Source: a virus
IMG/VR virus record: IMGVR_UViG_3300034280_001150
Span: 1 to 21,002 of that record
Strand: one strand, 5' to 3'
DNA length: 21,002 bases
A program made the translations under genes and the position numbers. The notes beneath the pieces are model-generated. The model saw nothing but the letters and a program-made list of their open reading frames with translations. It was not told the origin of the DNA and made no database searches. Every line of letters begins with the position of its first letter. The stretch's first letter is position 1. This document shows, one piece after another, positions 3,030-17,645 of the stretch.

Positions 3030-4166
3030 GTGACTCAGAAGAAAGCACCCAAGGGAAGCGTACAGGTCAAAACTACCATCAGTTCTGCGGGGGTGGGGTG
3101 GCTCCGGCTGGTTTGGAGTCACCAGGGCAAAAGATATTTTTTGAGCTTGGGATTGGAGGATAACCCCCTAAATCAGATGGTGGCACAACGGTTGGCTTTG
3201 CAGATTCAAGGGGACTGCGCCACGGGAAACTTTGATAGTTCCCTAACCAAGTACAAGCCACAATCAGAAATGGAAGTTAAACAGGCGACGGTTTCAGTTG
3301 TCGGATTAGTTGAACGGTATTTGAATTACAAGCAACAACAGATTGAATCAGAAACGCTTTATAAATACAATCATTTCTTGCCCAGGATTAAACAATATTT
3401 TGGTAATGATAGCCTGACTGAAAAATCCGCTTTTGGCTTTCGTGATTGGCTGCTACAACACAACGAACCCGCCACAGTTAGGGAAAGAATTGTATTCTTA
3501 AATGCTGTTTATGAGTGGGGTATTAAGAAGCAATTAGTTGAGGTCAATCACTGGACTGAGGTATCGGTAAAAGTTCCCCCAAAAAGAAGATTAAAACCTT
3601 TCTCAATTGAGGAAATCAAACGGATTTTAGAAGGGTTTGCAACGGATCAATATTATTCCCATTTTCTCCCCTACGTTGAGTTTTTACTGGGTACAGGTTG
3701 CCGCCCGGGTGAAGCAAACGGGCTCCAATGGAAACATTTCTCAGAAGACTGTGGAGAGGTTCTAATAGCCTGTAAATTAACGGTATCCGGTGAGCGGAAA
3801 TCGACTAAAACTAATCGTGATCGCTTAATTCCACTTCCCCCTCGCCTTCAAAATATTCTCAAAGCAATCCGTCCGATTGACCCCGACCCGGAGGCTCCGG
3901 TTTTCGTCTCCTTGACTGGATTGCCAATTGATTCCCACAACTTCAGGAATCGGGCATGGAAACAGGTTTTAGCTAAGGTTGGCGTGGAATATAGAAAGCC
4001 CGGAAACTGCCGTCATACTCTGATTTCCCACGGGTTATCACAAGGGAAAAGCCCTGCTGAAATGGCAGAACTCGCAGGGAATAGAATTGAGACTATTTAC
4101 AATAATTATGCTGGGAGCGTGATCCACCGACCATCTTTACCAGTATTGCTCCCAGATGACGAATAA
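3030..4166 (+). CDS. int: Tyrosine-type site-specific recombinase (phage integrase)
   Basis: 378 residues starting at GTG. Order: an N-terminal arm-binding domain (about 1-75, with GWLRLVWSHQGKRYFLSLG resembling the DUF3596-type domain of cyanobacterial integrases), a SAM-like core-binding domain (about 88-185) and a C-terminal catalytic domain. Catalytic residues: Arg225 in GTGCRPGEA, a Lys in the KSTKTNRDR loop (K257 or K260), Arg328 in NCRHT and Tyr360 in IYNNYAG. The two usual His positions are changed: HxxR reads GNCR, and the LGH motif reads AGN (Asn351). The second change recurs in this cyanobacterial integrase group, so it does not imply inactivity. The enzyme would recombine attP (2863-2908) with a host tRNA-Pro gene. 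No Shine-Dalgarno is seen; the start abuts an inverted repeat. Confidence 0.93.
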   Translation: MTQKKAPKGSVQVKTTISSAGVGWLRLVWSHQGKRYFLSLGLEDNPLNQMVAQRLALQIQGDCATGNFDSSLTKYKPQSEMEVKQATVSVVGLVERYLNYKQQQIESETLYKYNHFLPRIKQYFGNDSLTEKSAFGFRDWLLQHNEPATVRERIVFLNAVYEWGIKKQLVEVNHWTEVSVKVPPKRRLKPFSIEEIKRILEGFATDQYYSHFLPYVEFLLGTGCRPGEANGLQWKHFSEDCGEVLIACKLTVSGERKSTKTNRDRLIPLPPRLQNILKAIRPIDPDPEAPVFVSLTGLPIDSHNFRNRAWKQVLAKVGVEYRKPGNCRHTLISHGLSQGKSPAEMAELAGNRIETIYNNYAGSVIHRPSLPVLLPDDE

Positions 4167-6824: not shown

Positions 6825-6853
6825 TTGACACCTGTTGATGTTTTGTGTAGTAT
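6825..6853 (+). promoter_or_regulatory. Sigma70-type promoter for the gene at 6898
   Basis: TTGACA (6825-6830), a 17-nt spacer, TAGTAT (6848-6853). A direct repeat ACCTGTTGA (6820-6828 and 6830-6838) straddles the -35 box and could be an operator. Confidence 0.6.
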
Positions 6854-6897: not shown

Positions 6898-7326
6898 ATG
6901 ACAACCGCAACCGTAACCACAGCAACCCAGTTGATTGAAAAAATCAATTCTGAAGAAGAAGAATTAGTCATACTCTTTTTTAATCTCCCTGAGATTCATA
7001 AAGATTTTCAAATTGAGGGGGTTGTTCCCCTGACCGATAACTGGCAAATTGTTGCCACGACACAGTCGGTAGTAAACAAAATTAATCCGGCTGAAAACCG
7101 GAAGTCGGGATGGTTTGACATCCTAGAGAAATACGTCCCCGAAGATCAGTGGAACCTGTCCGCTGATGACCAGGACTACCCGGTCACTTGGTACCCTGTA
7201 GTACCGTTCGACTGTTGGTATATGACCGACAAAACTTTTTACCAGCAAGCCACATCTGCGGCCCTGGAAATCTTGAAGGGGCTCAAGCCCGATAAAGTGC
7301 CAGAGTGTTATCTGGACTTAGTTTAA
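6898..7326 (+). CDS. Unknown 142-aa protein
   Basis: GAGGA precedes the ATG and a good promoter lies upstream. The N-terminal 20 residues are threonine-rich, followed by an acidic patch (NSEEEELVILFF). The C-terminal half is rich in Trp, Tyr and Pro (YPVTWYPVVPFDCWYMTD), suggesting a globular domain. No family recognised. The tRNA-like element starts 10 nt after its stop, so it may be cut from this transcript. Confidence 0.7.
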   Translation: MTTATVTTATQLIEKINSEEEELVILFFNLPEIHKDFQIEGVVPLTDNWQIVATTQSVVNKINPAENRKSGWFDILEKYVPEDQWNLSADDQDYPVTWYPVVPFDCWYMTDKTFYQQATSAALEILKGLKPDKVPECYLDLV

Positions 7327-7336
7327 GACTAAGACA

Positions 7337-7383
7337 GCGACCGCAGGTTAGCCCCTGACTGGGTTCGATTCCCAGTGGTCGCA
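7337..7383 (+). ncRNA. 47-nt tRNA-like element lacking the normal central arms
   Basis: GCGACCG (7337-7343) pairs with TGGTCGC (7376-7382), a complete 7-bp acceptor stem with one G-T pair, followed by discriminator A7383. The T arm is ideal: CTGGG-TTCGATT-CCCAG (7359-7375). Between them is one small hairpin, CAGG-TTAGCC-CCTG (7344-7357), in place of both the D and anticodon arms. No CCA is encoded. A GAAA-tetraloop hairpin TCCC-GAAA-GGGA (7385-7396) follows. It cannot decode but could be recognised by RNase P, CCA-adding enzyme or EF-Tu; a deletion relic of a tRNA is the plain alternative. Confidence 0.65.
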
Positions 7384-7426
7384 TTCCCGAAAGGGATATC
7401 AACAACTACACAGAAGGGACAAGACA

Positions 7427-7630
7427 ATGACACTAGCAAAAGGACTGAAAATCTCCTCAGACTACAAAAAGGCGGTCGGGGCTTATCGTAGCCAGATGAC
7501 CAATGCTGGTTACGTCCTGAGTACCTTTAATGGTACTGACGTATTTATACACAAGGATTTTCTAGCTTTCGCCAAGAAAGCTGAGATGTATTCGGATTTC
7601 CCCGATGGGGCGATCCTAGAATATGTTTAA
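7427..7630 (+). CDS. Unknown 67-aa protein
   Basis: GAAGGGA lies about 7 nt before the ATG. The protein is small and lysine-rich at the N terminus (MTLAKGLKISSDYKKAVGAY) with an aromatic C-terminal half. No recognised family. A HIP1 octamer begins immediately after its stop. Confidence 0.6.
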   Translation: MTLAKGLKISSDYKKAVGAYRSQMTNAGYVLSTFNGTDVFIHKDFLAFAKKAEMYSDFPDGAILEYV

Positions 7631-7708
7631 GCGATCGCAGCCAAGCGAAAGCACCGCTTTTGATTCAGAGTATTCTCGGATTGACACACTCGGTTATTAA
7701 GGAGAATC

Positions 7709-7954
7709 ATGAGAACATTTGCATTGTTTACAAAAGAATACTGTCCTTTTCGAGTCGGAGAGTGGGTTGAGAAGACTTATACCAGGAAAACAATCTGTTA
7801 TAAATCTGTAACTACAAGAGCGGAAGTCGTTATAGAAACTGAAATCGATCCAAGCCCGTTCGATAGATGGATCGGGGATTATTGTACGATAATCAATTTA
7901 GATGTCAAAACAGAAACACCGTTAATAGACCAACTAGAGAGAGCAAAATCATGA
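7709..7954 (+). CDS. Unknown 81-aa protein coupled to the ring nuclease-like gene
   Basis: A good AAGGAG lies 4 nt before the ATG. Beta-rich, with three cysteines (YCPF, TICYK, DYCT). Its TGA overlaps the ATG of the DUF1874-type gene (ATGA at 7951-7954), so both are made together. There is no helix-turn-helix, so it is not an obvious anti-CRISPR-associated repressor. It may be a partner or a second inhibitor; only the coupling suggests this. Confidence 0.7.
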   Translation: MRTFALFTKEYCPFRVGEWVEKTYTRKTICYKSVTTRAEVVIETEIDPSPFDRWIGDYCTIINLDVKTETPLIDQLERAKS

Positions 7955-8331
7955 TTAAATTACTTTCTGCTATTCCTAACTCCATCCTCTCCCCTGGAGA
8001 TGGGTTTGAAGTATTGGTTTCTTCCCTCTCAGATGAAGATGTTAAAACAGAACTTTCAAAAAACAAATGGGAGTCATGCGTTGGGCATGACTCAACAGCT
8101 AAGTTATTCTCGGAAAAACTCGGATTAGATATTCAATTTAACCGCCAAAATATCATATTGCTTCCGAATGAAGCCTTGATTGTGGGAATGTTTACACCGC
8201 CCCGTCGATTGGGAGAGGGTGAGGTCTGGACGGAAGAAGAAATACTCGCAATGCCCATTAACTGGGTGAGGGTGGTTAAATACCCAAAAGGCTACTTGGT
8301 CGCTGTCCCTTCTGTGGAAGCGATCGTATAA
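7951..8331 (+). CDS. DUF1874 / AcrIII-1-type predicted viral ring nuclease (anti-type III CRISPR)
   Basis: AcrIII-1 proteins (DUF1874) cleave cyclic tetra-adenylate, the alarm molecule of type III CRISPR systems, and so switch off its effectors. In this 126-aa protein residues 42-58 read SCVGHDSTAKLFSEKLG, matching the family signature S-x-[IV]-GH-x-x-T-A-x-x-x-x-x-x-LG. His46 corresponds to the catalytic histidine. It is followed by QFNR (Arg65) and RRLGEGEVWTEEEI (85-98), matching the conserved RLxEGxxLTxEEI segment. The family domain ends near residue 110 (NWVRVVK). The last 13 in-frame residues do not resemble the family and overlap a zinc-ribbon frame. The start is the ATG at 7951, coupled by ATGA to the upstream gene; an open extension to 7867 is ignored. 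Family assignment is by eye; activity is inferred. Confidence 0.8.
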   Translation: MIKLLSAIPNSILSPGDGFEVLVSSLSDEDVKTELSKNKWESCVGHDSTAKLFSEKLGLDIQFNRQNIILLPNEALIVGMFTPPRRLGEGEVWTEEEILAMPINWVRVVKYPKGYLVAVPSVEAIV

Positions 8332-13766: not shown

Positions 13767-15740
13767 TTATGCTCCTATTAATCCGTGAGTTGTCAAATCA
13801 TCAATCAACGCTTTTACTCTTTCAGCTAATTGTGGAAGAGTGACGGTTGACGTGGCAAAAGTTGTGCGGGTTGCAGTTCCCGTTGGCGCTACCCATCCGG
13901 TTCTTCTAGTAGAAATAACCTGGGTTGCGTTTAAAGACAAAGCACCTCTGAAAAAGTTATTGGTAATATTTGAATCACCAAAAGACATCGTATTTGAGCC
14001 GTTTCCGGTAGCGTTACAACCAAAAACGTTCTCATTGGTTGCGTTTTGGGTTCCTTTTGTCGATGCACCTATAAAACAAGAGTTGTTGGTAACAGAAATT
14101 TCTGTTACACCGTCAGACTGAAATCTTCCTGCATTATCACCAAAGGCGGAGCAGCTACTACCTGTGGTATTAGCCCTGAGTGAATAAGCACCAAAGGCGG
14201 AGCAGTTAGTGCCTGTGGTATTAGCCTGGAGCGAACCAGCACCAAATGCGGAGCAGTTAACCCCTGTGGTATTAGCCCTGAGTGAACTAACACCAAATGC
14301 GGAGCAGCTACTACCTGTGGTATTAGCCCTGAGTGAATAAGCACCAAAGGCGGAGCAGTTAGTGCCTGTGGTATTAGCCTGGAGCGATTCAACACCAAAG
14401 GCGGAGCAGTTACTACCTGTGGTATTAGCCAGGAGCGAACTAACACCAACGGTCGTATTTGAACTTACCTCCCCTGCTCCCCTCCCGACAGGAATTAGAT
14501 TATAGGAATTAGCACTTATGGTATCCGCAAAAATAGCCCCCGTAATTCCCAAGCTAGCCGCACGAATCGCACCCGTTGTGGGACTGGTAGAAGTTGTTGC
14601 ACTGGTTGAAACTAAGTCACCTGTTACAGTTCCACCGGACAAGGGTAGGTAAGCTGCGGGTAGTCGGGCAGCATTCAAGGTTCCGGTTGAAATATTAGAA
14701 GCATTTAAACTGGTTAATGCTTCTCCAGAGCCAACATAGCCAGTAGCAGTAACTGTTCCTACCACATCAAGTTTAGTAGTAGGTGTAGTTGTACCAATTC
14801 CAAGACTTCCCCCATTCAAATAAGAATTTCCAGAAGCGGTGAGTGAAACAGTTGGTACGTTTACTGAACGAAGGGTCAAAGTTCCGATGTCATTTGTCGC
14901 GCTTGACCCCTGTAACTGAGCAACCGTAAACGCACCATTGGACACAGCAAAACCATTAAATTGATTGCTGCTGACGACAATAGCAACCCCCCCAACATTA
15001 ATAGTATTTGCAAAAATAGCACCCGTAATTCCCAGGGACGCACCACGAATCGCGCCCGTAGTGGTAGAAGTTGATGCAGTGACACTGGTTGAAATCAAGT
15101 CCCCCGTTACTGTCCCACCCGTTAGGGGAAGGTAAGAATTAATATCAATTGAATAAGTCCCGTTCCCTGTTTTCTTGAGAAATCCTGGGGTGTCAGATAA
15201 TGCCTGAATTGCAATTAATTCATTCCCTATACTATTAGTCGAAACCGCAGTTACTTGACCTTTGGCGTTAACAGTGACAACAGGAATAGCACTGACACTA
15301 CCAAAACTGCCAACATTGCTATTGACTGTCTGCAACGTCATCACACCCGAAACGTCAGCACTCCCATCGAAACCACTAATCGAACCAGTTATATCCCCCG
15401 TCGTTGAAATTGTCCGGGCATTTGTTAGTTTTAACGCCTCCCCCGCCGTTGCCGAGCTTGATATTTCAACATAAACAGAACCCGACCATCGGTAGGTTTT
15501 GTTGTTATCTTCGGTGACATAAATTTTGCCAGTCTCACCCGCAACCGGAAACGTTGCAAGGTTAGCAAAATTCAAGACATCATCAACATAGGATGGCAAA
15601 ACCGATGCTGAAATTGTGCCAGTCGCGGCGTTAACAGCCGTTAAGATTGTATTATTGGAAGTTAATGATTTTGTGAAACTGGCAACCGTTGGATCGGTTT
15701 CAGCTGTAATCACATTCCTAATTAATTGTCCAACGCCCAT
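13767..15740 (-). CDS. Tail-fibre-like / trimeric adhesin-like virion protein
   Basis: 657 aa, rich in Thr, Ser, Gly and Asn and poor in charged residues, as in trimeric beta-structured fibres. Residues 62-93 (GETGKIYVTEDNNKTYRWSG) form a segment common in phage fibres. A block of about 45 residues is duplicated (203-247 and 364-408, both with GGTVTGDL and SLGITGAIFA). Residues 435-536 are six 17-residue repeats of the type SLxANTTGxNCSAFGxx, like the head repeats of YadA-type adhesins. The C terminus (LPQLAERVKALIDDLTTHGL) is a helix I associate with cyanobacterial and cyanophage fibres. GGGGG precedes the ATG. It should mediate host recognition. A Cys in every repeat is unusual for an extracellular fibre. 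Confidence 0.85.
   Translation of the reverse strand: MGVGQLIRNVITAETDPTVASFTKSLTSNNTILTAVNAATGTISASVLPSYVDDVLNFANLATFPVAGETGKIYVTEDNNKTYRWSGSVYVEISSSATAGEALKLTNARTISTTGDITGSISGFDGSADVSGVMTLQTVNSNVGSFGSVSAIPVVTVNAKGQVTAVSTNSIGNELIAIQALSDTPGFLKKTGNGTYSIDINSYLPLTGGTVTGDLISTSVTASTSTTTGAIRGASLGITGAIFANTINVGGVAIVVSSNQFNGFAVSNGAFTVAQLQGSSATNDIGTLTLRSVNVPTVSLTASGNSYLNGGSLGIGTTTPTTKLDVVGTVTATGYVGSGEALTSLNASNISTGTLNAARLPAAYLPLSGGTVTGDLVSTSATTSTSPTTGAIRAASLGITGAIFADTISANSYNLIPVGRGAGEVSSNTTVGVSSLLANTTGSNCSAFGVESLQANTTGTNCSAFGAYSLRANTTGSSCSAFGVSSLRANTTGVNCSAFGAGSLQANTTGTNCSAFGAYSLRANTTGSSCSAFGDNAGRFQSDGVTEISVTNNSCFIGASTKGTQNATNENVFGCNATGNGSNTMSFGDSNITNNFFRGALSLNATQVISTRRTGWVAPTGTATRTTFATSTVTLPQLAERVKALIDDLTTHGLIGA
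14133..14438 (-). repeat. Six 51-bp tandem repeats inside the tail-fibre gene
   Basis: Each unit encodes 17 residues (SLxANTTGxNCSAFGxx). Units 2 and 5 are almost identical, as are 3 and 6, so the array probably grew by doubling a three-unit block. Recombination could change repeat number and thus fibre length. Confidence 0.85.
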
Positions 15741-16354: not shown

Positions 16355-17645
16355 TTAATGCCCTTGCTAATTCGGATTCAATCTTGTCTTTTGAAATAGA
16401 ACTTAAATAATCCAAATCCTGAATTTCTTGGGAGTTGGATTCATCATGTTCTGGGTTTAGCTGTTGTTTATACGGGTCAACATAGAATCTAGGCCAGATA
16501 ATTCTATAAAGCCAATCTTCTCGACTGTAGCCATGTAGTGCTAATTCAAGATTGAAAATATGTTTAAATCCCGATGATAAACAAGCTCTAAAATCATTAA
16601 TCAATCTGGCATGGGCACGTTCTGGCCCTCCCGATATTTCCCTCGCTCCGATACTGGGAAACCCTAACATCCAAGGGGGGATTCTTGACCGTCTGACAAA
16701 TCTTGCCATAAAAAATTGAGCAGATTCTAATAGGGCTTTGATGTCAGGGTTGACGTTTGAAAGTTTTTTAATATCACCTCCGTTATACATAAACAGATCG
16801 GTTAAAATCTTGGATTGCTTTGCGGATTCATACATTATTTTATACTCCTCCGCCTGTTGTTCATCATAATCACACGGGAGAATATGAACATTTGGATTAA
16901 TCCCGATACTATGCGCGGCTTCGGCAATATCATCAAGGATTTGCTCGATTCTGCCCCAATCCCTCAGACATTCAAGAAACAATCCCCTGCCATATAAAGT
17001 GTCTCGACGATAACGCCAATGTACGACCGATATGGGATGAAATTGGATAGGATCGGGATCTCGCATTAATGCCCTTTGCTCATATCCCAGCAACTCACCT
17101 TTCTTGGTTTCAAGTCGGAACATCTCCCAAGTTGGCAACAATAAAAGCCGTTCAATTCGCATCGCTCTTGTATTAACCCCTAAAGACACAAAAGCGTCAC
17201 CATAAGCTAATAATCTTTCCCCTATGATTTTAGGTTCAGAGGGTAGGATCACTTCTCGGATAACTCGCCTTAATATTTCCTGAATTTTGGGATCTACTTT
17301 GGTTGTGTTGTCGTTCAAAGTGTCGGCAATATCAAACCCTTGATCATCTCCATCGTGGCTAGTCCATGCGTCACCATTGATAGCGTCGTAAGCTGTTGCA
17401 GCCTCCGAACAATAGTACCTAAGTTCGATTAATTGCTTAGCGAGTGCAGGGCTTCTAACGGGGTTTTCAGGAATTTCTAAATCATAATCCCGACCCTCTT
17501 GAGTTCTATCGTCATAAGTCCAGTTTCTCCACCCAGAACGAGAGCGTTGTTGCCCTTCAATATCTGTTCGATTCCAAAAAGTTAGGAGTCGCCATATCTT
17601 TTCTAAAAGTTGGTTTCTCCCTGGGGTTGGGTAAGGCGATCGCAT
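16329..17645 (-). CDS. Phage portal protein
   Basis: The portal is the dodecameric ring at the head vertex through which terminase pumps DNA. This 438-aa protein has the middle pattern of tailed-phage portals: PISVVHWRYRRDTLYGRGLF (about 203-222), then a long helix with LRDWGRIEQILDDIAEAAHS, and IPPWMLGFPSIGAREISGGP (about 325-344), the region where portals list lipid-free nickel-and-hairpin-like loops. The length suits the family. It lies downstream of the terminase on the same strand, separated by a plus-strand cassette of 1.4 kb. AGGG precedes the ATG, and the start codon region contains a HIP1 octamer. The assignment is by pattern and position. Confidence 0.8.
   Translation of the reverse strand: MRSPYPTPGRNQLLEKIWRLLTFWNRTDIEGQQRSRSGWRNWTYDDRTQEGRDYDLEIPENPVRSPALAKQLIELRYYCSEAATAYDAINGDAWTSHDGDDQGFDIADTLNDNTTKVDPKIQEILRRVIREVILPSEPKIIGERLLAYGDAFVSLGVNTRAMRIERLLLLPTWEMFRLETKKGELLGYEQRALMRDPDPIQFHPISVVHWRYRRDTLYGRGLFLECLRDWGRIEQILDDIAEAAHSIGINPNVHILPCDYDEQQAEEYKIMYESAKQSKILTDLFMYNGGDIKKLSNVNPDIKALLESAQFFMARFVRRSRIPPWMLGFPSIGAREISGGPERAHARLINDFRACLSSGFKHIFNLELALHGYSREDWLYRIIWPRFYVDPYKQQLNPEHDESNSQEIQDLDYLSSISKDKIESELARALNGKHYISR

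Follow-up and report, generated by a model that had tools for sequence, protein, structure and literature searches.

A 47-nt tRNA-like element at phage gene junctions, a candidate signal for RNA processing

Structures of tRNA shape are found between coding genes of mitochondrial transcripts and of tRNA-mRNA operons in phages and bacteria, where cuts are expected at both ends (tRNA punctuation). The 3′ ends of the animal RNAs MALAT1 and NEAT1 carry mascRNA and menRNA, in which an acceptor, small middle hairpin(s) and a T arm build up a 12-bp stack with no encoded CCA. Cleavage by RNase P and RNase Z releases both, and CCA is added. A length of 12 bp is the span of the top half of tRNA, and such a stack with a T loop and a discriminator base, but without CCA, is recognised by RNase P, RNase Z and the CCA enzyme. 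In T4-type phages, short intergenic stem-loop cassettes (PeSLs) are situated where genes shuffle; reportedly, as described by Arbiol et al. in 2010, a paper cited in PMC4177764, they are mobile regulatory cassettes carrying early promoters. Some marine cyanomyoviruses (S-WAM1, S-SZBM1, S-SSM5) have tRNA genes at gene junctions in the order stop codon, tRNA, in some cases a hairpin, RBS and ATG. RNase P also processes RNAs other than tRNA, among them phage M3 RNA, the C4 RNA of phages P1/P7, polycistronic mRNAs such as that of the his operon, and intergenic sites of E. coli (PMC11143913), which gives a precedent on phage RNA and polycistronic mRNA. According to the citation of Ceballos-Chavez and Vioque (2005) in PMC3161902, a cyanobacterial RNase Z exists and was assayed on pre-tRNAs.

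The window analysed here is the whole of a 21-kb stretch (21,002 nucleotides), an IMG/VR contig of a cyanobacterial virus related to the Planktothrix phage PaV-LD. On its + strand, positions 7337-7383 specify a putative 47-nt RNA made up of an acceptor helix, one small hairpin and a T arm, which reads GCGACC, G, CAGGTTAGCCCCTG, ACTGGG, TTCGATT, CCCAGT, GGTCGC and A. The 5′ strand of the acceptor helix (GCGACC, 7337-7342; fold and covariation) pairs with 7377-7382 of the 3′ strand GGTCGC, which together with a discriminator-like A7383 occupies 7377-7383 (sequence); no CCA is encoded. A single small hairpin, CAGG-TTAGCC-CCTG (7344-7357; fold), replaces the D and anticodon arms, and G7343 in front of it is either unpaired or forms a G.U pair with 7376. 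The T arm (7358-7376; sequence, covariation and fold) consists of a 6-bp stem (ACTGGG/CCCAGT) and the loop TTCGATT at 7364-7370. After one T, a GAAA-capped hairpin (TCCC-GAAA-GGGA, 7385-7396; sequence and fold) follows; in most related copies it begins 0-3 nt past the element. The element and this hairpin together fold at -30 kcal/mol (z -4.1). Sequence and fold thus bear out the coordinates and the anatomy of a tRNA-like RNA given in an earlier note on this DNA. The acceptor stem described there is indeed an intact paired helix. To a division into a 7-bp acceptor and a 5-bp T stem we prefer 6 + 6 bp, with A7358-U7376 in the T stem, because this pair (22:40) covaries between A-U and G-C; the stacked helix measures 12 bp under both readings.

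At this junction the stop codon is followed after 10 nt by the element, and then come the hairpin, an RBS and an ATG. The upstream ORF (142 aa, 6898-7326, +) has no family match, and its TAA ends 10 nt before the element. The downstream ORF (67 aa, 7427-7630, +), also without a family match and homologous to PaV-LD ORF025R, starts 44 nt past the last acceptor nucleotide and is preceded by an RBS-like GAAGGG at 7413-7418. A promoter-like sequence, TTGACA-17-TAGTAT, resides upstream of the 142-aa ORF (6825-6853, +; a consensus match only), and a sigma-70 consensus scan gave no promoter between the element and the 67-aa ORF, though phage promoters may differ. As none was found at the element and a promoter-like site precedes the upstream ORF, the two genes and the element probably belong to one transcript. 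Directly after the 67-aa ORF we detected the remnant GCGATCGCAG (7631-7640, +), which corresponds to the initial 10 bases of another element. At that place the second element is complete in the relatives L004, L005 and L007, truncated in L006 as in the window, and furnished with an inverted T loop in PaV-LD.

Two further features of the window may be mentioned. At 2855-2908, close upstream of a gene for a tyrosine integrase (3030-4166, PF00589), the DNA resembles the 3′ half of tRNA-Pro(GGG), which is followed by a terminator-like hairpin. This feature was also seen in L004, L007, L009, L011, L014, L020 and PaV-LD, and it is probably the attP core used to integrate into a tRNA-Pro gene of the host. 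At 7867-8331 a 154-aa protein is encoded, one domain of which is STIV B116-like (PF08960); the family takes its name from a protein of an archaeal virus.

ARAGORN reported no tRNA in the window, and the element, which is not a tRNA gene, cannot decode, as the earlier note had stated. An Rfam search of the window disclosed no family at gathering score. The features of RF00005 are shared as far as the acceptor stem, a T arm with a TTCRANY loop and G53-C61 are concerned; a D arm, an anticodon arm and a score above the cut-off are missing, and a single 14-nt hairpin is present instead. The closest Rfam shape in sense orientation is mascRNA (mascRNA-menRNA, RF01684), at a sub-threshold 24.3 bits against a gathering cut-off of 42.5. 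A longer tRNA reading (7298-7375; 22.3 bits, sub-threshold), whose 'D' and 'anticodon' arms fall inside the upstream ORF, was rejected because the relatives lack that upstream sequence. An integron attC site was likewise dismissed, the paired core sites RYYYAAC / GTTRRRY not being conserved across copies: GGTTAGC has no conserved partner by inspection and is missing from the first copies of L004, L006 and L009, whose small-hairpin loop is 4 nt shorter, and from most copies of the IMG/VR record IMGVR_UViG_2830687482_000004 (G406). A descriptor composed of the T loop, a 5-bp T stem, the outer 6-bp acceptor and a spacer of 6-30 matched shuffled windows 0.02 times per strand. At this rate a match alone is mildly unusual, and the case is made by conservation.

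Homologues were identified in PaV-LD and 18 IMG/VR contigs, each with one or two clear full copies and all between ORFs. The genome of PaV-LD contains two copies and none further. The first is located at 14804-14850; in the second (15096-15142, L082) the T loop is exactly inverted, AGTCGAA for TTCGACT, with unchanged stem strands, and this copy is a stem-loop inversion caught in nature. Among 11 distinct sequences of the close family, 93.6% of the pairs were kept. The T stem is either ACTGGG/CCCAGT or GCACGG/CCGTGC, with both partners of a pair exchanged together; in the acceptor, the differences are G-U changes and one double change. One or two events might be enough to account for both T-stem types, so that covariation within the close family is modest evidence by itself. 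In every phage of this family the element is positioned just past a stop codon and ahead of an RBS and ATG, and the neighbouring gene families vary both upstream (266, 165, 105, 67 or 142 aa) and downstream (67, 93, 105, 126 or 94 aa). The earlier note had proposed a search for homologues with compensatory changes in related phages, and such changes were found in the acceptor and in the T stem. Broken pairing or missing conservation, which it had named as contrary signs, were restricted to single copies, namely the inverted T loop of PaV-LD copy b and the truncated second copies of the window and L006.

Beyond the close family, a genome scan revealed two divergent copies in the same layout on one contig of the cyanobacterium Symploca sp. 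SIO2E9 (L125), which is plasmid-like and was the only real member among initial matches that were mostly due to chance. G406 turned out to harbor 13 T arms, all of them on the strand that encodes its small ORFs; the opposite strand has none, with 0.34 expected per strand. Nearly all of them have a partner acceptor strand and a hairpin starting 0-3 nt later; in most, a stop codon lies at or near the 5′ end, and the ATG is mostly 21-42 nt downstream. At least one extra copy is devoid of the T loop and has the identical hairpin ATTCCCGAAAGGGAT. One G406 copy (L144/L145, reverse-complement 17300-17390), in which a TCGC tetraloop replaces the T loop, lies directly before a consensus promoter, TTGACA-17-TATAAT. 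A 189-aa protein of G406 had no relatives in phages or cyanobacteria. The phages L167, L180 and L197 show the same layout, and the copies of L206 and L192, in which the outermost pair is missing, are probably members too. In several copies of G406, L206 and L192 the stop codon resides inside the element.

Scans R1 and R2 of 386 cyanobacterial genomes gave only the Symploca plasmid-like contig as members, and so did scan R2 of 40 genomes of the Symploca order; in scans of more than 40 genomes 15 candidates per genome were scored, and absence there is weak. A BLAST search against plasmids yielded nothing convincing. The other scan matches were true tRNAs, arrays of the HIP1 palindrome (L137) or a picocyanobacterial T-arm locus. 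The array of L137/L139 (contig C39 of G320) comprises tandem units of ~74 bp built on GCGATCGC (HIP1) with TTCGACTCC; it had no G-C closed T arm on inspection and is probably an unrelated repeat. In cyanobacterial genomes of ~2.3-2.7 Mb (L147, L148, L161, L165, L135) we noticed a locus that combines a T arm with an acceptor-like helix (6+6 bp in L147) and has a hairpin behind it; it gave no match with ARAGORN or Rfam and is possibly another minimal tRNA-like RNA.

To what extent pairing is maintained was judged on ten divergent elements. Here, 97.5% of the cells were paired compared to 69.5% after shuffling, both sides had changed in 10 of the 12 pairs, and covariation reached 0.763 against 0.193±0.045 in shuffled sets, the T-stem share of these figures being inflated because many members had been found by stem-favouring searches. 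Sliding the pairing partners by 1-3 columns abolished the covariation signal. With the break point left free, 8 of the 13 G406 copies paired perfectly over 12 bp (null 0.15) and two over 13 bp; the acceptors had not been a search criterion there, but partners were chosen by eye or free search with some freedom, for which the null corrects only partly. The acceptor and T helices add up to 12 bp as 5+7, 6+6 or 7+5. Because pairing is mostly clean over 12 bp and seldom over 13, we concluded that what stays constant is a stack of 12 bp, the length also found in tRNA (7+5). In 25 curated elements, 15 non-Watson-Crick pairs were G.U and three A.C, an excess which points to an RNA of the + strand. 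The innermost T-stem pair, which closes the T loop, was G-C in all 25; in tRNA the corresponding closing pair is G53-C61.

Full tRNA genes were encountered at the same junctions. At the junction that holds the mini-element of L180, full tRNA-Arg/tRNA-Val genes follow the same oxygenase gene in the isolates S-WAM1 and S-SZBM1, and the acceptors of L180 (GGTCCTG/CAGGACC) and S-WAM1 (GGTCCAG/CTGGATC) exhibit a compensatory double change at position 6. A neighbouring junction contains tRNA-Arg in some phages and an unpaired remnant in L168, L166 and L195, of which only the T arm and the 3′ acceptor strand are left, running into the upstream ORF. Full genes, mini-element and remnants indicate that junction tRNA genes can shrink, some copies decaying and others keeping the paired top half. 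The three remnants and those of L174, L179, L189, L193 and L201, which lack a paired acceptor, were not counted as members; in all eight marine cyanomyovirus relatives, tRNA-Arg has seemingly decayed and the end of the upstream ORF reads through. Genuine phage tRNA genes from IMG/VR (L053-L081, L169-L205) often have a TTCCC-N4-GGGA hairpin within a few bases, at the same position as in the mini-elements, with a frequency that is biased since the search pattern selected for the hairpin.

The element is probably a cis-acting RNA processing signal, a minimal form of tRNA punctuation between genes of one transcript. Among the functions suggested in the earlier note, sequence comparison gives most support to the processing signal, in the form of compensatory changes and a constant location between ORFs. 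We prefer it because those parts are kept that tRNA enzymes recognise, and because there are precedents for RNase P and RNase Z. The folded element, corresponding to the acceptor/T-arm half of a tRNA, would present its 12-bp stack and T loop to the host tRNA enzymes. As no CCA is encoded, RNase Z would be expected to cut after A7383; the discriminator-like base is mostly A across the elements. RNase P may additionally cut before G7337. The absence of a 3′ RCCA, which is the usual preference of RNase P, counts against this latter cut, and in elements with an internal stop codon it would remove that codon. These internal stop codons point to the 3′ cut as essential, or to folding that takes place after the ribosomes have left or competes with them. 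Cleavage would separate the two messages, the upstream one finishing at the stop codon or carrying a tRNA-like structure at its 3′ end that could receive CCA, the downstream one beginning with the GAAA hairpin close to the RBS, with a protected 5′ end and independent expression. Transcription through the joint, its cleavage and a benefit of cleavage are what we infer. At a given junction the element is dispensable, because single copies have lost the T loop or are truncated; most gene junctions in these phages are without it.

Being an identical, gene-free joint, the element also serves as a recombination site for the exchange of neighbouring genes. It is conceivable that this is its main role, small genes being shuffled at the DNA level by homologous or site-specific recombination and the RNA shape being inherited with little use. 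Pairs of phages indeed share the element but not one flank, on which identity drops to random: downstream identity of L019b and L011 is 1.00 and upstream 0.50-0.60, L019b and L010 show the reverse, identity between the window and L005 is random upstream past the first 40 nt, and L011 resembles a recombinant inside the two L019 elements. A DNA joint, however, requires identity and not pairing, yet pairing persists as the sequence diverges. Moreover, wobble changes are G.U rather than A.C, and copies within one phage are too dissimilar for recombination, and we regard a mainly DNA-level role as unlikely. A decaying tRNA gene or an integration scar at an intermediate stage is an even less probable explanation. 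Full tRNA genes and remnants at the same junctions of marine cyanomyoviruses, as well as the truncated or loop-inverted single copies, are in line with decay, but compensatory changes keep the acceptor and T stems paired across the window family, G406 and Symploca, and the 13 copies of G406, which share a strand and are situated at gene junctions, form a pattern not expected from decay. Pairing and conservation were lost in L168, L166 and L195, and not in the family.

A 47-nt RNA with an acceptor, T loop and A discriminator is about the minimum that tRNA enzymes bind, and a small RNA that is tRNA-like and stable is already known in mascRNA (to which similarity is sub-threshold). The product might therefore act in trans, as a mimic that ties up tRNA-handling enzymes (RNase P/Z, CCA enzyme, EF-Tu) or a host defence directed against tRNAs, but the fixed stop-start position, the adjacent hairpin and the many divergent copies per operon fit an action in cis better, and we think this role rather improbable. 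A decoy for host anticodon nucleases, as had been suggested, is unlikely for an RNA with no anticodon, and the related proposal of a small regulatory RNA leaves the stop-element-hairpin-ATG layout and the many different copies in operons unexplained. Stop codons overlapping the 5′ strand in several copies, with a start ~20-50 nt further on, imply that folding and translation compete; the element could hence control translation of its neighbours directly, by re-initiation or by insulating the RBS, without any cleavage. For this purpose a plain hairpin would suffice, and the T loop, the invariant G-C pair and the 12-bp span would not be accounted for, which makes such a control very improbable.

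Compared with the described systems, the processing signal that we propose agrees with tRNA punctuation in its location between ORFs on the coding strand (13 versus 0 T arms on the strands of G406), but it has no D and anticodon arms, does not decode and is followed by a short hairpin, and its cleavage is a prediction. The junction tRNAs of S-WAM1, S-SZBM1 and S-SSM5, unlike the mini-element, are complete and decoding. mascRNA and menRNA belong to the processing of nuclear lncRNAs in animals, whereas the element is part of phage operons, has a hairpin and an RBS after it and occurs in many copies per genome. M3 RNA, C4 RNA, the his operon and the E. coli sites are isolated cases with other structures, whereas the element recurs between genes. 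PeSLs carry early promoters and are not tRNA-like; the element had no promoter in the sigma-70 scan. A search of the open-access literature, with subscription papers and preprints outside its scope, gave no description of the element. Each ingredient has a precedent; the minimal, non-decoding, multi-copy form in phages appears to be new.

It is an open bet, with slightly less than an even chance, that phages and plasmids share a general, as yet unnamed class of operon signals that arose repeatedly from tRNA genes and serve to cut polycistronic phage messages by means of host tRNA enzymes; we would define it by a 12-bp acceptor/T stack, a T loop, zero or one extra arm and a downstream hairpin. 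Should the cleavage prove real, phages would process their transcripts with the host tRNA machinery, using a signal of less than 50 nt that is present in up to 13 copies per phage. This would account for a number of tRNA fragments, and possibly also for some of the junction tRNA genes that codon usage leaves unexplained, and would provide natural minimal substrates of RNase Z and RNase P as well as a compact tool for splitting operons. The element also represents a physical joint for phage mosaicism, recognisable by covariation instead of sequence.
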